A stretch of DNA of 15,390 bases from an uncultured Blautia sp. (lineage in GTDB: Bacteria > Bacillota > Clostridia > Lachnospirales > Lachnospiraceae): positions 1 to 15,390 of the forward strand of contig USPF01000051.1 in the NCBI GenBank assembly GCA_900556555.1, read 5' to 3'. Below the pieces are notes generated by a model that saw nothing but the letters and a program-made list of their open reading frames with translations, did not search any database and was not told the origin of the DNA. Both the position numbers and the translations under genes were made by a program. The first letter of the stretch is position 1; the number at the start of each line of letters is the position of its first letter. Shown here piece by piece: positions 7,580 through 15,390 of the stretch.

Positions 7580-8911
7580 TCATTTTACTATTTGATTATA
7601 AATTTTTTCTGCCGCACCTTCTGTACTGCTCCCAAACAAATACCTTCTTTTTTCTGTCTGTATGAAAATCCATGGCCCTGTTCTTGGATCCCGGCACACC
7701 TTCACACTTCCCAGGGAATTGCTGTTAAACAGCCCTTTCTGTACACTTTCCATTCCTGAACCATTTACTTTTGACAGAGGAATCTGCTCTGTCAGAAGTT
7801 CTGCTGATTCTATCTCTTCTTCCCTGATCTCATAAGAAGTTCCTGTATGAGATGCTGTGAGCACTCCGTTTTCATAAGAAAGTTCCACAGGCTGACGTTC
7901 TTCATAGATAAGCCACACCCCCATAAAGGGCATTGATACCAACAGCAGAACCAATAAGAACATGATTATCTTTCCGGCTCTTCGTGCCAGATTAAAAGAC
8001 ACATTCATGCCAGTCCTGTCGTTGATCAGCAGTTTCTTGTCATAAGGATTATAGTAAAACATACCCCGGATCCAGTAGTCATCCTCATCCACATAAAATC
8101 CTTTTCCACTGTCTTTTGTAAACTTTTCCTGCATCCTCCGTACCCGGAACTCCACACGCACCACCAGGATCACCAGTACACTGGTCAGAAGAAAAATCAA
8201 GGTCATATTCAGCCAGAAATTTTTTATGGTCAGCCATATGATCCAGTTTAACGCAACTGAAAACCATGCGGTGTACAGCCAGTTCTTCCCCCAGTTATAC
8301 TGCCGGATACGTGTGAGAACCTCCGCTGTCTTCATGTTTTCATCTACAGTCTCTACTCTTTTCCGGTACATGAAACGGTAAGCCAGCCAGGAAAAAAGAA
8401 CAAGACCTGCATCCATCACATAAACCATCCAGAAAGTCTTGTCTCCTATAAGTGGAAGCAAACTCACCACCAGCGGAATCAAAAACCATATGGGTGACAG
8501 CCATTTTACTGAAGTTCCAGCCAGTTCCAGATTTGCTACAATTTCTGTCTGGGTCTTCTTCCACCCTCGCTGTATCTTCAGTTCCTTTAGTGCTTTGTTG
8601 CACCGGATATACGGAATATACGTCAAAACCAGAAAAACATCGATCCACAGCAGATACACCAGCATCATCACACCAAAATCACGGATAGGCATACAGAGAA
8701 CCGCCGAGATCAGCATTATGATACACAGGATTTTAAGCTGCTTTAGAAATTTTCGCAGGATTTCCTGAACCTGAGTATCTTCTCTTGCCTCAAAAGGAAG
8801 TGTTACTCCAATCACAATGTTTTTCTTAAATTTCGTCTCATTTTTCTGCATAAAATATACCAGGGGAATAATCCATATAATAGAGCCCCACATAATCAGA
8901 TTCGTCATCAT
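7580..8911 (-). CDS. Multi-spanning membrane protein with DUF5808-like and PH-like domains
   Basis: This 443-residue integral membrane protein is of unknown function. Membrane segments are apparent at about 3-20, 60-75, 79-100, 137-155, 159-181, 212-229, 233-252 and 313-336. Between the last two is a hydrophilic stretch (270-310) containing DEDDYWIRGMFYYNPYDKKL, which resembles the DUF5808 motif. The part after the final helix (about 340-443) looks like a bacterial PH-like domain, with strands around VELSYENGVLTAS and a closing RRYLFGSSTEGAAEKIYNQI. The start overlaps the GntR stop as ATGA, so the pair is translationally coupled. Relatives commonly sit beside GntR regulators in Firmicutes. 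A role in envelope stress or antimicrobial response is a guess. Domain names are from memory of the motifs. Confidence 0.85.
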   Translation of the reverse strand: MMTNLIMWGSIIWIIPLVYFMQKNETKFKKNIVIGVTLPFEAREDTQVQEILRKFLKQLKILCIIMLISAVLCMPIRDFGVMMLVYLLWIDVFLVLTYIPYIRCNKALKELKIQRGWKKTQTEIVANLELAGTSVKWLSPIWFLIPLVVSLLPLIGDKTFWMVYVMDAGLVLFSWLAYRFMYRKRVETVDENMKTAEVLTRIRQYNWGKNWLYTAWFSVALNWIIWLTIKNFWLNMTLIFLLTSVLVILVVRVEFRVRRMQEKFTKDSGKGFYVDEDDYWIRGMFYYNPYDKKLLINDRTGMNVSFNLARRAGKIIMFLLVLLLVSMPFMGVWLIYEERQPVELSYENGVLTASHTGTSYEIREEEIESAELLTEQIPLSKVNGSGMESVQKGLFNSNSLGSVKVCRDPRTGPWIFIQTEKRRYLFGSSTEGAAEKIYNQIVK

Positions 8912-9285
8912 ACTTCATCTCTCCCTTCCATATGAAGTGTATTTCTGCACAAATTCAAAATCTCCTCTTTATCCATTCCTGTCAGTACCAGTTCCGACAG
9001 ACAAATCCTGAGTTTTTCAAGAAGCTGTTCATCCGGTTCTGTCTTATCCGGCACAGAGATCACACTGCCCAGACGCCTTTCTGTTTGTAAATATCCCTCC
9101 TGCTTCAAAAGCTGGTAAGCTTTGCTCACAGTCATCACATTAATTCCACTCTCATCCGCCAGCTCACGCACGGTAGGAAGCCGCATGCCTGCCTTTAGCG
9201 TTCCTTCTACAATTCCAAGCACTACCTGATTCCGTATCTGCTGGTAAATGGGAACTTCGCTGTTAAAATTCAAATGAAGAAGCAT
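8908..9285 (-). CDS. GntR-family regulator, YtrA subfamily
   Basis: The 125-residue protein has an N-terminal winged helix-turn-helix (about 9-78) with the hallmark order PIYQQIRNQV, GTLKAGMRLPTVRELADESGIN and VSKAYQLLKQEGYL. The C-terminal part is only about 47 residues and helical, too short for a FadR or HutC effector domain, which marks the YtrA subfamily. Such proteins are usually dimeric repressors of the operon that contains them. Here the partner is a membrane protein with a PH-like domain, and no ABC transporter genes follow as in the Bacillus ytr operon. The start has a near-perfect AAAGGAGGTG site. The stop overlaps the next start by 4 nt. The inducer is unknown. Confidence 0.92.
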   Translation of the reverse strand: MLLHLNFNSEVPIYQQIRNQVVLGIVEGTLKAGMRLPTVRELADESGINVMTVSKAYQLLKQEGYLQTERRLGSVISVPDKTEPDEQLLEKLRICLSELVLTGMDKEEILNLCRNTLHMEGRDEV

Positions 9286-9361: not shown

Positions 9362-9414
9362 ATTTAAAAAAGAACCCGCAGAAACCAGGTTTCAAACCTC
9401 TGGATTCTGCGGGT
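9362..9414 (-). terminator. Strong Rho-independent terminator of the sensory operon
   Basis: On the minus strand ACCCGCAGAA (9405-9414) pairs with TTCTGCGGGT (9374-9383). The stem continues inward through CCAG/CTGG and GGTT/AACC with one mismatch and a small bulge. A T-rich tail (TTCTTTTTT) follows. It lies 33 nt after the stop of the small ORF at 9448, so that ORF is inside the transcript. Confidence 0.92.
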
Positions 9415-9447: not shown

Positions 9448-9552
9448 CTATGCCGCTTCCTGCAGCTTCTGGATCAACCTCTCAATTTCCTCTGTACTCA
9501 TACCCATGAAAAGAGTCATTTGTTTTACCAGTTCTGTTGCGTCTCGTTTCAT
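9448..9552 (-). CDS. 34-residue small protein, last gene of the sensory operon
   Basis: The ORF has ATG at 9550-9552 and TAG at 9448-9450. A Shine-Dalgarno-like AAAGGA lies 9 nt upstream, and the start is only 23 nt after the stop of the galactose-binding lipoprotein gene. The predicted protein begins MKRDATELVKQMTLF and ends IERLIQKLQEAA. It is largely helical, with a hydrophobic patch (LVKQMTLFMGM) followed by a charged amphipathic helix (STEEIERLIQKLQ). It has no signal peptide, no cysteine and no family I recognise. Location between a structural gene and a strong terminator, with its own binding site, argues for real translation. It might bind the kinase or a membrane partner, but nothing in the sequence proves that. 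Confidence 0.6.
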   Translation of the reverse strand: MKRDATELVKQMTLFMGMSTEEIERLIQKLQEAA

Positions 9553-9575
9553 ACTGTTTATTCCTTTACTTTTTT

Positions 9576-10583
9576 CTATTCCAACACTTTTGCATAAGGA
9601 AGGTAAAGATACTTTTGATTTTCAAATGGAATCTCATCCATACCCTCACCCGATGCCAATGCTGCTGCCAGTTTTGCCATAGCCTCTGCCTGACCTTTCT
9701 TGTCGTTATAAACAGTACCATCCAGCTTTGACTCTCTTACGGCCTTTAATCCCACATCTGTACCGTCGATTCCGAAAAACAACGGCAGCGTAGATTCTGT
9801 ATAATTTAATTTTTCATAGGCATCTATAGCACCAAGTGCCATTTCATCATTATTGGCCAGAACAAGTTCAATCTTTGTCTGATACTGGCTAATCATCTGT
9901 GACATTCTATTTTCTGCCTGAGCTCGGTTCCAGTTAGCCAGCCCATAGCTTAACTTTTCCAGTTCAATTCCATTTGCTTTTAAAGCCTCTACTGCATTTT
10001 CTGTGCGGATAATAGTATCCTGATGTCCCGGTTCACCTTCCAGCACAACATACTGGATTTTCCCGTCTTTATTTCGGTCACTCTGGGGATTTTTCTTAAT
10101 TACATCTGCTGCGATTTCGCCCTGCATAGTACCAGATTCCTGTGCATCTGCCCCTACATAATATAACTTTTCCCATTGCTGCATATCTTCAGCTACAGGT
10201 TCTCTGTTGAAAAAAATCAATGGAATATCATTGTCTCTGGCCAGGTCTATAATCTCCGAAGGATCTGTCCTGTCTACCAAATTCACACAGAGAACATTAC
10301 ACCCTCCGTCAATTAATTCTTGTACCTGATCATTCTGGGTTTTCTGAGAGCCTCCGGCTCCCTGTATATTCACACTGGCTTTCTTACCCTGTGACTCTAA
10401 TTCACGGATTTCTTTCTTAAAACAATCCAGCAGTTCATTTAAAAAAATATCACTCTGATCATAGTAAGTCACACCAGCGCAAAGACCCTGCTCTTCCTGT
10501 ATATCCTGTTTCTGGCAGCCGTTTAAACACAATACTACTGTACCAAAAAAGATTCCTGCAGCTACGTTTCTTTTCTTCCTCAT
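9576..10583 (-). CDS. Glucose/galactose-binding lipoprotein (MglB-like)
   Basis: The 335-residue protein is a type I periplasmic-binding protein. A lipoprotein signal peptide ends in LCLNGC, with Cys23 as the lipidated residue, so it is tethered outside the membrane. Against E. coli MglB from memory, the sugar contacts are all kept: Asp45 and Phe47, Asn126 in FFNREP, His187, Asp189 and Arg193 in GEPGHQDTIIRT, Trp218, the VLANND loop (241-246), Asp273 and Asn293. The EF-hand-like calcium loop DRNKDGKIQ (169-177) and its partner Glu239 are also present. D-galactose or D-glucose binding is therefore well supported. It follows a sensor kinase gene rather than mglA/mglC, so it may be a sensing receptor, a second transport receptor, or both. 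An AGGGA site precedes the ATG. Confidence 0.92.
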   Translation of the reverse strand: MRKKRNVAAGIFFGTVVLCLNGCQKQDIQEEQGLCAGVTYYDQSDIFLNELLDCFKKEIRELESQGKKASVNIQGAGGSQKTQNDQVQELIDGGCNVLCVNLVDRTDPSEIIDLARDNDIPLIFFNREPVAEDMQQWEKLYYVGADAQESGTMQGEIAADVIKKNPQSDRNKDGKIQYVVLEGEPGHQDTIIRTENAVEALKANGIELEKLSYGLANWNRAQAENRMSQMISQYQTKIELVLANNDEMALGAIDAYEKLNYTESTLPLFFGIDGTDVGLKAVRESKLDGTVYNDKKGQAEAMAKLAAALASGEGMDEIPFENQKYLYLPYAKVLE

Positions 10584-10599
10584 GTTTCTTCCCTACTTT

Positions 10600-11550
10600 C
10601 TACTGGCTCATTGTAAAAAGGAGCTCCTGATTTTCTTTGGAAAACAATGTATCCCGCCTCAAAACGATATAAGGTATCTTCTTTCCCGGCATAGTATAAA
10701 AGAAATGTTCCAATTTTTCTGCCATTTGTGACAAACTCTGATACCCCATATTAAAAGCGTCTGGCACTACCAGGCACTCAGCAATTCCTGTATCAAGATA
10801 ATACACCGCTTCTGTTGATTTCCCAATACCATACACCAGCGAACCATGAAGATTATTGGTGGCAGCGGCTGCTCCCACCCTGACCAGGCTATTGTCATCT
10901 AAGGCAATGACAAAATCCACTTTCTGCTGCTCCTGCAATTTTTCAGACACAGACCATAATACTACAGCACCTTTATCTTTCAATGTATCTAGCAATCCGC
11001 TTTCTCTTGCTGCTACTGCTTCTGTATCTCTATTCTCGGCAAATAAGCCAATTGTCTTGTTCTTGACATTTCCATTGTAATCCTTTAATAATTCTTTTGC
11101 CAATGTAACGCCCATCTCATAATGTTCTGGCTCTGTAACCGGGAATGCGTCTGAAGTCTTTTCTCTGTCTACTGTGGATTCCACCAGCATAACAGGAACT
11201 TTCTTTTCAATTTTTTTCAACATTTTCCTAGATTCTTCTCCCGGTACTGGCTGGACTATAATTCCATCTGCACCCTTTGCTATTTCCTTTTCTATCATAG
11301 CCTTTTGCTCTTCTGCCGTGAATTCTTCCCCTGTACTTACTACAAACAGTTCTATCTTTTTATCCTCGGCAGCCATCTTAAGGCCATATTGAAAGGCTGT
11401 CCACTGGTTATCGTCAGAGTTTTGGACAATCACCGAAATCTTATCCAATTCTTCTCCATTTTTCTCTCTTATCATAAGGGATGCCAAAATCACAACCATA
11501 CTTCCCAGAATCATTTCTATAAAAAGAAATACTCTCTTGCTATTCTTCAT
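10600..11550 (-). CDS. Membrane-anchored periplasmic-binding-like protein
   Basis: I choose the ATG at 11550 (316 residues) because AGAGGA lies 6 nt upstream of it. An ATG six bases earlier (11556) would touch the same site. The N-terminus has basic residues and one hydrophobic helix (about 6-26), with no cysteine and therefore no lipobox, so it is probably an uncleaved anchor. The rest has the two-lobe sugar-binding fold of the Peripla_BP_4 type: ISVIVQNSDDNQWTAFQYG at the start, KGADGIIVQPV near residue 90, and FVIALDDNSLVRVGAA in the second lobe. The gene overlaps the end of the kinase gene by 11 nt and precedes the MglB-like lipoprotein gene by 16 nt. This resembles the XylFII co-receptor of clostridial LytS-type kinases. 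The ligand is not evident. Confidence 0.88.
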   Translation of the reverse strand: MKNSKRVFLFIEMILGSMVVILASLMIREKNGEELDKISVIVQNSDDNQWTAFQYGLKMAAEDKKIELFVVSTGEEFTAEEQKAMIEKEIAKGADGIIVQPVPGEESRKMLKKIEKKVPVMLVESTVDREKTSDAFPVTEPEHYEMGVTLAKELLKDYNGNVKNKTIGLFAENRDTEAVAARESGLLDTLKDKGAVVLWSVSEKLQEQQKVDFVIALDDNSLVRVGAAAATNNLHGSLVYGIGKSTEAVYYLDTGIAECLVVPDAFNMGYQSLSQMAEKLEHFFYTMPGKKIPYIVLRRDTLFSKENQELLFTMSQ

Positions 11551-13405
11551 TACCATTCCTCTGCATCTCTTTTTTCTCTATCTCTTCTTTGCTGAACAGG
11601 TGTCCTTTTTCCAGAATCTTCCTATTTTCTTCTGTATAAGGAATTGCAGGAATGCGGATGGAAACCCTGGTTCCTTCGTCAGGCTCACTTTCTATCAAAA
11701 GGCCGTATTCTTTTCCAAACAAAATCTGAAGTCTGTTATTGATATTAACCAATCCTACTCCTGAACCATGTTTACGCTTCCGGTTGCTGTCCGTTAACAG
11801 AAGGCTTACTTCCTCTTCAGACATCCCGATTCCATTGTCTTCTACAGATAGAATCAAAAGATCTTCTTCTTTTTTCACCCGAATCATAATTTCACCACAG
11901 TCATCCATAGGATCCACACCGTAGTTAATAGAATTCTCCAAAATCGGCTGAAGCGTTAATTTCACAGCACAATATTTTTCCAAATCTGGATCCACATCGA
12001 AAGTAACCGAAAATGCATCCTTATAACGTATTCTCTGGATATTCATATAACTTTTTGCGTGTTGCAGTTCATCACGGACACTAATAATGGTATGTCCCTG
12101 AGAAAGGCTGATGCGGAATAATTTTGCAAGCTGGGAAATCATAAATGCTGCCTCATCATTCCGCTCTCCTTCAATCATCCAGGTAATGGAATCCAGGGCG
12201 TTATATAAAAAGTGCGGATTAATCTGGCTTTGCAGTGCATCCAGTTCACTTTTTCTTCTCTCATTCTGCTCCCAGACAATTTCCTGCATCAGTTCTTCAC
12301 TTTTCTCATAGGAACTTTGAATGGAATAACCAAGATGCCTGATTTCAGAAGAACCACCGATATAAATTTCCGGTTTCTTTCCCGCTTCATATTCCATAAC
12401 AGAATGATTCAGTTTTAATATTGGTCTGGAAATCCTCTGGGTCACTACACGGTTAATGATAATCAGCATCATAGCCATCAAAAGGATTACCATAACAATA
12501 AAATACCGGATATTAATCATCTCATGGCTGAAAAGAGAATACGGGATTACACCGACCAGCTTCCATCCTGTGTAACTGACTGTATTCACAATTACTTTTC
12601 TTTGCACACCTTCAAACTCTTCATCATAGACACCGTCTTTATAAGATGCTGCAACCGAACTGTTTTCTTTACAGATTCCATCACTGATTTGAATCTGTCT
12701 TGGATGATAAATAATCTGCCCGTTATTGTCACAGAGATAATAATACTGTCCATTACTGACTTCATTAATCTGCTTCATCATTCTAGAAATACTAGAAAAA
12801 TCCATATCTACCAGAAGGACTCCCGTCTGAGAAGTCCGGTTTTCTGTGAGTTCCACCGCTCTGCTGGAGGAGATGACCCAGTAATAACGGAAAGAATTAT
12901 CGTCAAAGAGATTCTGGATGTGTGGTATGGAAAAATGTATATTTTCCATCTTATCCATGGCCTTCTGGTACCATTCCTGCCTGGTTACATCCGGATCTTC
13001 TTTCTGAGATGCCACAGGTTCCGCTGCCACAAGACTTCCATCTTTGTTATAAATAGCAATTGTACGCAGTTTATCCCTGTTTGCCTCATAGAGGAGATTC
13101 ATCCCCTTCTGGATTTCTTCCCGCTTATCATAAAAATCATTTTCCTTTACTACATTATAATAAACCGCATCCGAGATTTGTCTCATGTTCACCAGATAAT
13201 CCTCCATGGATTCTCCTGTCTGTTCCATAAGTTTTCTGGAGCTTTCCGTCGTTTCCTGCCTGGACAACATGGAAAATCTCATATACATAAGAACTCCCAT
13301 AAGCAGCATGGTCAGCACTGAAATGAAGGAAAACACCAGCATCAACGTACTTTGAATCCCTCCCGGTTTCATTTTTTTTAAATACTGCAGCAATCTTTTT
13401 TTCAC
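11540..13405 (-). CDS. YesM-type sensor histidine kinase
   Basis: The 621-residue membrane kinase starts with GTG (13403-13405), which overlaps the response regulator stop as GTGA. Two membrane helices (about 20-43 and 300-319) flank a large extracellular dCache-like domain (about 50-295). A HAMP segment (about 320-372) follows, then the His_kinase domain with phospho-acceptor His398 in LQSQINPHFLYNAL. The ATPase part has the N box LQPILENSINYG (485-496), DNGIGM (523-528) and GSGVGLVNINNRL (547-559). All catalytic motifs are intact. A charged tail of about 30 residues follows the ATPase domain. This class (YesM/LytS-like) commonly controls carbohydrate uptake in Firmicutes. The two binding-protein genes downstream suggest that a sugar-loaded receptor is its signal. 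Confidence 0.94.
   Translation of the reverse strand: MKKRLLQYLKKMKPGGIQSTLMLVFSFISVLTMLLMGVLMYMRFSMLSRQETTESSRKLMEQTGESMEDYLVNMRQISDAVYYNVVKENDFYDKREEIQKGMNLLYEANRDKLRTIAIYNKDGSLVAAEPVASQKEDPDVTRQEWYQKAMDKMENIHFSIPHIQNLFDDNSFRYYWVISSSRAVELTENRTSQTGVLLVDMDFSSISRMMKQINEVSNGQYYYLCDNNGQIIYHPRQIQISDGICKENSSVAASYKDGVYDEEFEGVQRKVIVNTVSYTGWKLVGVIPYSLFSHEMINIRYFIVMVILLMAMMLIIINRVVTQRISRPILKLNHSVMEYEAGKKPEIYIGGSSEIRHLGYSIQSSYEKSEELMQEIVWEQNERRKSELDALQSQINPHFLYNALDSITWMIEGERNDEAAFMISQLAKLFRISLSQGHTIISVRDELQHAKSYMNIQRIRYKDAFSVTFDVDPDLEKYCAVKLTLQPILENSINYGVDPMDDCGEIMIRVKKEEDLLILSVEDNGIGMSEEEVSLLLTDSNRKRKHGSGVGLVNINNRLQILFGKEYGLLIESEPDEGTRVSIRIPAIPYTEENRKILEKGHLFSKEEIEKKEMQRNGNEE
11557..11562 (-). promoter_or_regulatory. 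Ribosome binding site deciding the start of the anchored binding protein
   Basis: AGAGGA on the minus strand lies directly against the ATG at 11556 but 6 nt from the ATG at 11550. The second spacing is the functional one, so the shorter protein is preferred. The site lies inside the 3' end of the kinase gene, which implies coupled translation. Confidence 0.6.
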
Positions 13406-15006
13406 TTTTTCGCATACTCCGTTCTGTATTTAGAAGGGGATACCCCAAAACGCCGTTTAAAAACATAGCTGAAATAATTAGCATCTGCATATCCGACCTG
13501 CTTTGCTATGATATAACTCTTTTCGTTTGTCTCTATCAACATACGAGAAGCTTTTTCCATTCGGTAATCTGTAAGATATCCAATAAAAGAAGTACCTTCT
13601 TCTTTCTTAAAAATTGTAGAAAAATAAGAATTCGATACACCCAGTTCCTGACAAACACTATCCAGAGAAAGGTCTTCATCATCATAATGATTCTTCACAT
13701 ACTCTTTTGCCTGTACAATAAAAGAACTGGTGGACTGATCTCTGGCACAGGCAATCTTATCCTGGAAAAACAAACTAATATTCTTCAGCCACTGTCCAAG
13801 ACGTTCCGGCTCCATCTCCATCAGTCTGCTATACAATCTTCCAATATCACTACAGAAATCTTCCATAGAAATATTATGATTAGCTGAAAACCTGTACAAT
13901 GCACTGACCAGTTCCATCACAGCAACCTGATGTTGCTGCATAGATTTTTCAGGAGATGACAATCTGCTAAGATACTGCTCCGCTGCCTCCAGAATATCTT
14001 CTTGAGAACTTAAACGAATCGTCTTAAACAAATTTGACAATTCTGCCTCACTGGTAGAATCCGGTTCTGCCCCTTCTTTTGGTGCAATTTCGTTCATATT
14101 GATAGCCCTTGAGGCTCCATACAGGACACGGTAAGACACCGCTTCTCTGGCACCGCTGTAGGATTTTGATAACTCACTGACCCTATCGCACACCTGGCCG
14201 ATTCCCACAGTCACCACTGCTGCAATAATACGGCTTGCATATTTGCAAAAACGGTCACATTCGTCAGTTAATTCGGATACTTCTTTTTTATCCCTTAACT
14301 GAGCGATCAAAACGGTGTTTCCCAGATAAGAAAAACACTTTGCCTGCCACTTCTGTGCCAGACGTTCTTCTGCCTGTTTCTGCACAGATGCAAATAAAAG
14401 CTGTGGACTCATCCCCTCTTCATTTTGCGCAGATGATGTATGAATGACCAGGCAGCAAAAATAAGGACCCTGAAAAGAAATCTGATAATCTGTTATATAT
14501 TTTGGAACCTCTTCTTCCTGAATCCTCCCCTCAATCAAGGTAGAATAAAAGTTTGCCTGCAGAAGCGGTAGAGATTCCAGATAATACTCCTGTAATATTT
14601 TTGCATTTCGTTTTTCACTGATTTCCTGATCCAGTTTCGTCTTCAATCTTTTGAAAATTTCCGTTAATTCTATGGCATTTAAAGGCTTCAGAATATACTC
14701 CTCTGCTTCCAGATGGATAGCTTCTCTGGCATATTCAAATTCATCAAAACCCGTGAAAAACAATATTTTCGTATCCGGATACTCTGCCTTTACCTGCTTT
14801 GCCAGTTCCATTCCATCCATATAAGGCATCTTGATGTCCGTGATCATCACATCCGGCTGATATTCTTCCACCATTTCCAGTGCTTTCACACCATTATTTG
14901 CATGTCCAATCACCGAAAAACCAATCTCTTCCCATGCAATTTTCTTCATAATAATCTGGATAACTTCCTCTTCATCATCCACCAGCAGCAATGTATATCG
15001 ATCCAT
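13402..15006 (-). CDS. YesN-type response regulator with AraC DNA-binding domain
   Basis: I choose the ATG at 15006 (534 residues): GGAG lies 6 nt upstream and the receiver domain then starts MDRYTLLLVDDE, as is usual. An ATG at 15018 would add four residues and has an AGGA spaced only 4 nt away. The receiver domain (about 3-118) has the acidic pair Asp10/Asp11, phospho-acceptor Asp57 in TDIKMPYMDG, Thr85 and Lys107. A long helical linker (about 120-425) follows. The C-terminal AraC/XylS domain (about 429-531) has both helix-turn-helix units and the family ending QVGYADANYFSYVFKRRFGVSPSKYR. It is the first gene of the operon, so kinase and receptors are likely autoregulated. The natural target is the flanking mgl operon (inference). 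Confidence 0.95.
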   Translation of the reverse strand: MDRYTLLLVDDEEEVIQIIMKKIAWEEIGFSVIGHANNGVKALEMVEEYQPDVMITDIKMPYMDGMELAKQVKAEYPDTKILFFTGFDEFEYAREAIHLEAEEYILKPLNAIELTEIFKRLKTKLDQEISEKRNAKILQEYYLESLPLLQANFYSTLIEGRIQEEEVPKYITDYQISFQGPYFCCLVIHTSSAQNEEGMSPQLLFASVQKQAEERLAQKWQAKCFSYLGNTVLIAQLRDKKEVSELTDECDRFCKYASRIIAAVVTVGIGQVCDRVSELSKSYSGAREAVSYRVLYGASRAINMNEIAPKEGAEPDSTSEAELSNLFKTIRLSSQEDILEAAEQYLSRLSSPEKSMQQHQVAVMELVSALYRFSANHNISMEDFCSDIGRLYSRLMEMEPERLGQWLKNISLFFQDKIACARDQSTSSFIVQAKEYVKNHYDDEDLSLDSVCQELGVSNSYFSTIFKKEEGTSFIGYLTDYRMEKASRMLIETNEKSYIIAKQVGYADANYFSYVFKRRFGVSPSKYRTEYAKK

Positions 15007-15044
15007 ATTTTTCTCCATGTAATCCTGTTAAATAATTTTACCTA

Positions 15045-15078
15045 ATTATAACAAGTGCACGACAAAATGTAAATGTAA
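15045..15078 (-). promoter_or_regulatory. Promoter of the two-component/sugar-receptor operon
   Basis: On the minus strand, -35 TTTACA (15068-15073) and a perfect -10 TATAAT (15045-15050) are separated by 17 nt, with an extended TG-N motif just ahead of the -10. Transcription should start near 15038, about 30 nt before the preferred start codon. A tandem hexamer TTACAT-TTACAT (15067-15078) overlaps the -35, and a GTGCAC palindrome lies in the spacer. Either could be an activator or repressor contact. Confidence 0.85.
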
Positions 15079-15093
15079 CGAATCCAGGAACGC

Positions 15094-15120
15094 AAAAAAA
15101 GAGCCAGATTTTCTGACTCT
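15094..15120 (-). terminator. Rho-independent terminator of the mgl operon
   Basis: On the minus strand AGAGTCAG (15113-15120) pairs with CTGGCTCT (15100-15107) through one G-T pair, around a 5-nt loop, and is followed by a run of seven T (15094-15100). It lies 24 nt past the mglC stop and separates mgl from the regulatory operon. On the plus strand the same stem has an A-C mismatch, so it acts mainly on minus-strand transcripts. Confidence 0.88.
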
Positions 15121-15144
15121 TTTTGCTTTGTATCCATATGAAAA

Positions 15145-15390
15145 CTATTTCTTCTGAACATATTTCAAACAGTCAAGTGTTACAGCTACCAGGATGATGA
15201 TACCTGAGAATACGAACTGAAGGTTTGTATCGATACCAAGGATTGTAAGAGAATATGTAAGTGCTGTAAAGATGAATACACCTACTACAACGCCTGAAAT
15301 CTTACCAATACCACCTGTGAAGGATACACCACCTACAACGCAGGCTGCGATGGCATCCATTTCCCATCCCTGTCCATAAGCTGCGGAACC
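15145..15390 (-). CDS. mglC: Galactose/methyl-galactoside ABC transporter permease, C-terminal part
   Basis: The reading frame is open from the window edge, with Gly-Ser-Ala-Ala-Tyr as the first visible residues, and ends with TAG at 15145. The 81 residues contain MDAIAACVVGGVSFTGGIGK, then two hydrophobic helices and the ending DCLKYVQKK. From memory this closely matches the C-terminus of E. coli MglC (LDAIAACVVGGVSFSGG and SLKYARKK at the end), a permease of the carbohydrate ABC importer family that moves galactose, glucose or methyl-galactosides with MglA and MglB. The N-terminal part and any mglA and mglB genes lie beyond the window. It is the last gene of its operon, with a terminator 24 nt downstream. 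Confidence 0.92.
   Translation of the reverse strand, partial: GSAAYGQGWEMDAIAACVVGGVSFTGGIGKISGVVVGVFIFTALTYSLTILGIDTNLQFVFSGIIILVAVTLDCLKYVQKK

Follow-up and report, generated by a model that had tools for sequence, protein, structure and literature searches.

The window analysed here (15,390 nt, positions 1 to 15,390 of contig USPF01000051.1 from an uncultured Blautia species) carries, beside mglC of a galactose ABC transporter, an operon for a YesN-type response regulator, a sensor histidine kinase and two homologues of sugar-binding proteins, SBP1 and SBP2. Comparison of the predicted proteins with their relatives pointed to a split between the two receptors, SBP1, encoded next to the kinase, having lost the canonical sugar site and SBP2 having kept an intact one. 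This split is the new feature, and it points to a transfer of the sensing role between the two receptors. We read the operon as a four-component galactose/glucose sensor in which SBP2 would sense the sugar, SBP1 would act as the coupling protein, the kinase would signal and the regulator would control the neighbouring mgl importer, and put the probability of this reading at roughly 0.55. The first-pass annotation of this DNA had proposed that a sugar sensor of several components, akin to XylFII-LytS-YesN, is linked to mgl, with galactose or glucose as the sugar; both proposals are supported, the second by a galactose/glucose site that is complete in SBP2.

An operon of receptor, kinase and regulator is not itself new, as it is of an established kind (excerpt of PMC10384115). 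There are precedents for binding proteins that signal to kinases, with one sensing receptor in each case in the literature compared, and no description of the present arrangement was found in the titles and abstract openings listed by searches of one open-licence library. If our reading is true, sensory specificity could be swapped without rebuilding the kinase, one protein family would provide a natural experiment on signalling by binding proteins, and common gut genera (Blautia, Dorea, Roseburia, Eisenbergiella and Anaerobutyricum) would detect free galactose or glucose in this way.

Conservation of the gene order

Genome contigs were scanned with an SBP1 alignment, and the best 80 of 85 loci together with the window make up the mgl-linked group, class A. 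The locus titles name Blautia, Dorea, Eisenbergiella, Roseburia, Anaerobutyricum and many unplaced Lachnospiraceae, as well as Eubacteriaceae, Clostridiaceae and two Oscillospiraceae, and some binding-protein homologues carry Blautia names. The full order mglC-regulator-kinase-SBP1-SBP2 was found in 64 of the 80 loci; of the remaining 16, 12 are cut by a contig edge close to the genes, and four (L007, L048, L065 and L067) deviate otherwise. Among judgeable loci, those with enough sequence to decide whether a gene is present, SBP2 follows SBP1 at a distance of at most 2.5 kb in 78/78, the kinase is in place in 77/78 (in L067 it is 2.8 kb upstream), the regulator in 72/73 (the exception being L007) and mglC precedes the regulator by no more than 1 kb in 63/67 (exceptions L044, L048, L060 and L065). 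This gene order exceeds chance. The first-pass annotation had put up a five-gene order for checking, including a small protein encoded by a 34-codon open reading frame (ORF) after SBP2. The order of the larger genes beside mgl was borne out, but no convincing counterpart of the ORF was found in the 350 nt after SBP2 in 76 relatives (best E 0.47), and the small fifth protein was rejected as a conserved part of the system.

In 298 genomes drawn from the family, an SBP1 match at E ≤1e-120 was found in 18 and any match at 1e-3 in 115. A first set of weaker matches, 40 fetched loci and L081, was classed by gene map. In class B, with 26 loci, SBP1 is followed by SBP2; the 15 loci of class C have no sensor SBP2, and in one of these (L121) a transporter's receptor comes next after SBP1. 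A model built from 28 class B and C sequences was then used to search 391 genomes of the taxonomic class, of which 153 matched at 1e-20. The 60 loci fetched from these, a second set classed by gene map alone, comprised seven four-component loci, 31 three-component loci (five with a transporter receptor next) and 22 that were left unscored, with no kinase directly upstream. The loci of both sets (40 and 60) were hand-picked from the listed matches by score and coverage of the N-terminus, and some of them are near-duplicates, for example L131/L133 and L147/L153.

The sugar site of SBP1

The N-terminus of SBP1 reads as a hydrophobic helix with no lipobox, and the structural model (pLDDT 90.5) has the two-lobed fold of sugar receptors, with GanP, AraP and XylFII among the best Foldseek matches. 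Positions 126, 245, 265 and others, which we take to be the known residues of ribose and galactose receptors, were then compared. At the positions of E126, G245 and P265 of SBP1, the best three relatives in the PDB (6gq0 GanP, 3brs and 4rxt) carry Asp, Asp and Gln, respectively.

A similar difference was seen between operons with SBP2 and those without a sensor SBP2. The hinge position, 245, is Asp in all 15 class C sequences versus none of the 26 in class B (Gly 22, Ala 2, Ser 2), and in the second set the hinge Asp was found in 30/31 three-component versus 0/7 four-component sequences. Residue 126 is Asp in 15/15 class C versus 4/26 class B sequences. Class C has Gln 265 and Asn 220 throughout (15/15 each); in class B residue 265 is Pro in 10 and Gln in five of the 26, residue 220 is Asp in 19 and Asn in one, and R184 and W52 are retained in 18/26 and 21/26, respectively. 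In class A (n = 81), where counts at 244, 245 and 265 are biased because the locus scan used peptides holding these residues, position 245 is Gly in 79 and Ala in two, with Asp in 0/81, position 265 is Pro in 78 and position 126 is Asp in three. The hinge peptide occurs in 55 of the 80 loci and the other 25, found by a second peptide alone, are also without the Asp. Class A was rejected as independent evidence of hinge loss for this reason, and pattern-free sets were used instead. Among 120 orthologues from a pattern-free protein search, position 245 is Gly in 120/120 and position 265 is Pro in 119.

Site entropy, the mean over nine site positions, was compared with the protein mean. It is 0.26 versus 1.96 in 45 three-component sequences (L143, considered below, left out) and 1.86 versus 2.39 in 33 distant four-component sequences, a comparison which argues that the old site constraint is largely gone in four-component SBP1. 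The corresponding values in the 81 mgl-linked sequences are 0.71 versus 1.46, the first lowered partly by the scan patterns, which fix 244, 245 and 265. Here a new site constraint seems to have appeared: W52, D220 and R184 are found in 81, 80 and 79 of the 81 class A sequences and in 120, 120 and 119 of the 120 pattern-free orthologues.

This conservation is what would be expected if SBP1 had been re-specialised to bind a different conserved ligand, with the kinase reading two inputs, one of them galactose or glucose through SBP2. That is the chief rival to the view of SBP1 as a sugarless relay, and we give it a real chance, though one well short of even. A protein contact or a locked shape could also explain the conserved residues, however, the same positions vary widely in the distant four-component sequences, and residue 126 varies even within the mgl-linked group (Glu in 35 and Gly in 34 of the 81). 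These comparisons favour an anchored partner over a second presenter of sugar as the role of SBP1. The earlier suggestion that one or both receptors present sugar to the kinase dCache domain is narrowed, as the two receptors are not equivalent and SBP2 would be the one to sense the sugar.

Three further observations concern SBP1. In the mgl-linked proteins the C-terminal tail (window positions 10600–10660; mostly LFSKENQEILFTMSQ in the relatives) ranks with the best-conserved segments, and E14, a Glu of the anchor helix, is retained in 79/81; both are possible contact sites. In L169, one open frame of 603 aa contains two tandem SBP1-like matches. Membership of the TorT family was rejected on score, SBP1 reaching 48 bits against the TIGR02955 cut-off of 310.

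The intact receptor SBP2

SBP2 matched the MglB model NF011924 with E 1e-68 and 231.8 bits, below the cut-off of 420, and by this measure is a homologue of MglB and not an equivalog; it also matched PDB 8fxu (E 1.4e-72). The sugar-contact and calcium residues of GGBP were taken from lists that we assume to be correct. Mapped by alignment, all ten sugar-contact residues are present in the SBP2 of the window, and the five residues checked for the calcium site agree as well. Among 77 class A and 25 class B sequences seven of the ten never vary and the other three hardly do, with D236 in 77/77 and 22/25, N256 in 74/77 and 23/25 and Phe or Tyr at position 16 (L096, a split gene, and two short class A sequences were left out, 76/78 being kept). 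All seven SBP2 sequences of the second set agree at nine of the ten positions, position 256 being Asn in five, Ser in one and Cys in one, with the split SBP2 of L125 read as two pieces. Site entropy is far below the protein mean in both classes (0.05 versus 0.9 in class A, 0.15 versus 1.5 in class B). The column of the lipid-bearing Cys is filled in 77/77 class A and 21/25 class B sequences in the alignment, although a strict lipobox pattern fits only 45 of the 77 class A proteins.

Origin of the four-component form

A tree of 96 kinases, including 17 of the 81 class A rows, was built by a quick method with a midpoint root and no bootstrap. All 50 sampled four-component kinases formed one clade (SH-aLRT 100), with the kinases of L150 and L143 as its sister. 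One change suffices on this tree for the switch from three to four components, and repeated independent losses of the site are not supported. In a tree of SBP2 and its relatives, made without the split SBP2 of L125, the sensor SBP2s formed one clade (98) apart from the transport paralogues sampled, with a branching much like that of the kinases, and the transport receptor of L150 fell on the transport side, near the base. One sequence labelled as transport (L084_T6) is a class A sensor SBP2, as L084 re-fetches L067, and two counted changes are really one. As judged from these trees, the four-component form has a single origin among the sampled loci, and SBP2 and the kinase were inherited jointly. 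Fisher tests were set aside because of the single origin.

A parallel history of SBP2 and kinase is not predicted if the operon encodes an ordinary three-component sensor, in which SBP1 would present the sugar through an unusual pocket and SBP2 would be a redundant duplicate. The Asp residues of hinge and N-lobe and the Gln of the C-lobe are, moreover, gone or variable in SBP1. We consider this explanation highly improbable, even though the fold of SBP1 is close to that of the sugar receptors GanP and XylFII and W52 and R184 persist.

L150 has an SBP1 with an intact site, followed by an SBP2 relative, likely the transporter's receptor, before mglA. With such a receptor placed between SBP1 and mglA, SBP2 may be derived from a transporter's receptor. 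Together with the homology to MglB, this arrangement also favours the view that SBP2 is a second receptor for MglAC transport merely housed in the sensor operon, leaving SBP1 or the dCache domain to drive the kinase. The mgl unit, however, has its own receptor (L001:1726-3030 and equivalents), which matched the glucose/galactose-binding lipoprotein 5jx2 over its full length (E 2.3e-93) and is matched in pieces only by ordinary galactose receptors; we take it to be of the circularly permuted type, and 5jx2 to be from Treponema. In the distant four-component loci, SBP2 stays with the kinase though the neighbouring transporter types differ, and the clade of sensor SBP2s stands apart from the transport paralogues sampled. 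We consider this view unlikely.

We hold at even odds a fuller history, in which SBP1 gave up its sugar and became an anchored kinase adaptor for a recruited receptor, in one event from which all sampled four-component Clostridia would descend, operons such as those of L150 and L143 being surviving steps.

The kinase and comparison with known systems

The sensor domain of the kinase is dCache_1 (Pfam, E 2.4e-26), followed by His_kinase and HATPase_c, and dCache_1 was also found in ten relatives of both three- and four-component forms. The structural model of the kinase, of moderate confidence (75.9), was used for domain type only; Foldseek matched it to dCache domains and to the kinase domain of GanS. 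As in three-component systems, a His_kinase/HATPase kinase is paired with a YesN/AraC response regulator (Pfam), and the genes for regulator, kinase and binding protein are adjacent on one strand and conserved in relatives. The operon departs from such systems in that the kinase-adjacent receptor is without the hinge Asp, C-lobe Gln and N-lobe Asp, and the site is in SBP2.

In the xylose system XylFII-LytS-YesN of Clostridium beijerinckii, a binding protein is likewise found with a LytS/YesM-type kinase and a YesN regulator, the last presumably being part of that system. The SBP1 model matched XylFII both alone and in the XylFII-LytSN complex (5xss, 5xsj). An excerpt of PMC6321045 describes XylFII as binding its kinase whether or not sugar is present, which makes a standing, sugarless SBP1 partner plausible. 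The sensor domain of LytS is a four-helix bundle (excerpt of PMC9769921), unlike the dCache domain found here, and the system has one sugar-binding sensor receptor in place of an altered anchored one and an intact lipoprotein.

GanP and AraP are, we assume, the receptors of a three-component system in Geobacillus stearothermophilus. GanP, for galactose/glucose, was the top solved relative of SBP1 by both sequence and Foldseek, and the GanS kinase domain that of the kinase by sequence; GanP retains the sugar residues that SBP1 is without. A three-component sugar system of that species is mentioned in an excerpt of PMC10384115. The same excerpt describes the cellobiose system CuaDSR with CuaABC of Ruminiclostridium cellulolyticum, which has a YesN/AraC regulator, a kinase and a sensing binding protein and, like the present operon, adjoins an ABC importer with its own receptor. 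CuaD, a lipoprotein, is there the sole sensing receptor, with cellobiose binding at 20 nM and direct contact with the kinase, and no second, site-less receptor appears in the excerpt. In TorT-TorS-TorR a periplasmic binding protein also signals to a kinase, and SBP1 is weakly similar to TorT but falls far below its cut-off, and the kinase here is of the dCache/His_kinase type.

A repeat before mglB

The window ends short of its own mglB promoter, and the candidate target was seen in relatives. In 55 of the 57 loci with the receptor gene found, the region upstream of mglB was examined for a tandem direct repeat, TTAAAAATTTCAATG-N7-AAAAATATTCTATGTT, which is followed by a -10-like TATACT box. 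The second half, defined on these same loci, was found within three mismatches in 52/55, 34 of them exact; in a control with one shuffle of each of the 55, one reached three mismatches and the rest had more. Both halves were recognised by eye in 51, and L076 has the core without the first half. The exact double pattern occurred once in each of 10/299 genomes, always before mgl, and a reversed control pattern gave none among the matches listed. Five of the ten exact sites lie 8.3–8.4 kb before an SBP1 orthologue on the same contig, where mglB starts, and the other five are directly upstream of mglB. SBP1 and the kinase are present in 8/10 of these genomes; seven of the 18 genomes with an SBP1 orthologue are among the ten, a figure that gives no rate since the draws differ and the pattern is exact. 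The conserved position of the repeat fits control of mgl by the regulator, which would bind there.

Proposed mechanism

We infer the physical contacts, the ligand and the direction of control from these comparisons. The SBP2 lipoprotein would close on extracellular galactose or glucose. SBP1, with its N-terminal helix as membrane anchor and no canonical sugar site, would be the standing partner of the kinase dCache domain and would couple closed SBP2 to the kinase. The kinase would phosphorylate the YesN-type regulator, and this would raise transport by binding to the tandem repeat immediately before the mglB promoter.

Several points weigh against this reading. The loci are not independent, because the tree shows site loss and SBP2 gain as a single event. 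In the mgl-linked group the altered site of SBP1 is conserved at W52, R184 and D220, outside the scan patterns, as a new ligand also predicts, and position 256 of SBP2 varies in a few sequences. Two genomes with the repeat (G166 and G686) are without kinase and SBP1, and in the distant four-component loci no such repeat was recognised before mgl, so that a repeat shared with them was rejected. Finally, the SBP1 of the three-component locus L143 (7001–8105), sister to the four-component clade, has Gly 245 and Glu 265 while retaining Asp 126, Arg 184 and Asn 220. The contig ends 139 nt after this SBP1 gene, but a terminator-like hairpin with a T tail (z -3.9) follows the gene directly and no SBP2 start was seen. 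Treatment of the locus as undecidable was rejected on these grounds, and it is a true exception to a strict rule, perhaps an intermediate step toward the four-component form.

Layout of the locus

The features of the region are listed in Table 1 in their order on the minus strand. The five closely packed ORFs described in the first-pass annotation agree with the coordinates: regulator and kinase overlap by 4 nt, the kinase starting with GTG; kinase and SBP1 overlap by 11 nt with an ATG at 11550, a start kept in relatives (a second in-frame ATG is at 11556); and gaps of 16 and 23 nt precede SBP2 and the 34-codon ORF. The mglC end, of 81 codons, partially matched the MglC model of NCBIfam, NF007014 (E 3.2e-28).

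Table 1. Features of the sensor operon and its borders
Feature	Position	Strand	Basis or remark
3' end of mglC, galactose ABC transporter permease	15145..15390	-	neighbouring unit; NF007014 partial match
likely intrinsic terminator of the mgl unit	15091..15126	-	hairpin and T tail, z -4.4
likely promoter of the sensor operon	15045..15073	-	TTTACA-17-TATAAT, extended -10
YesN-type response regulator: receiver, GGDEF-like middle, AraC-type HTH	13402..15018	-	PF00072, PF17853, PF12833
sensor histidine kinase: extracellular dCache_1, His_kinase, HATPase_c	11540..13405	-	Pfam
SBP1, N-terminally anchored Peripla_BP_4 protein without canonical sugar-site residues	10600..11550	-	Pfam, model, folds
SBP2, MglB-like lipoprotein with complete galactose/glucose and calcium sites	9576..10583	-	
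34-codon ORF, not conserved	9448..9552	-	
likely terminator of the sensor operon	9368..9414	-	hairpin and T tail, z -3.8

A single promoter and a single terminator, as annotated earlier, are likely. The promoter scores 11/12 and, of the window's two top matches, is the sole one with TG before the -10; of 69 relatives, 28 also have the 10-mer at its -10, TTGTTATAAT, ahead of the regulator gene. Consensus scans of the window gave no excess over shuffled sequence for promoters (38 sites versus 33.1, sd 5.7) or terminators (13 versus 10.9, sd 3.1), and the individual calls therefore rest on position, folding and conservation. The mgl hairpin (about 15126–15091) is absent from the list of the terminator scan. 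With a hairpin and T tail ending each, mgl and the sensor operon are likely two transcription units, and the sensor genes presumably share one transcript.

Downstream of the sensor operon are a GntR regulator (8908–9285) and, beside it at window positions 7580–8911, a likely membrane protein of 443 aa that matched no family above the cut-off. Further downstream is an ATP synthase operon, judged by the translations alone with no search.

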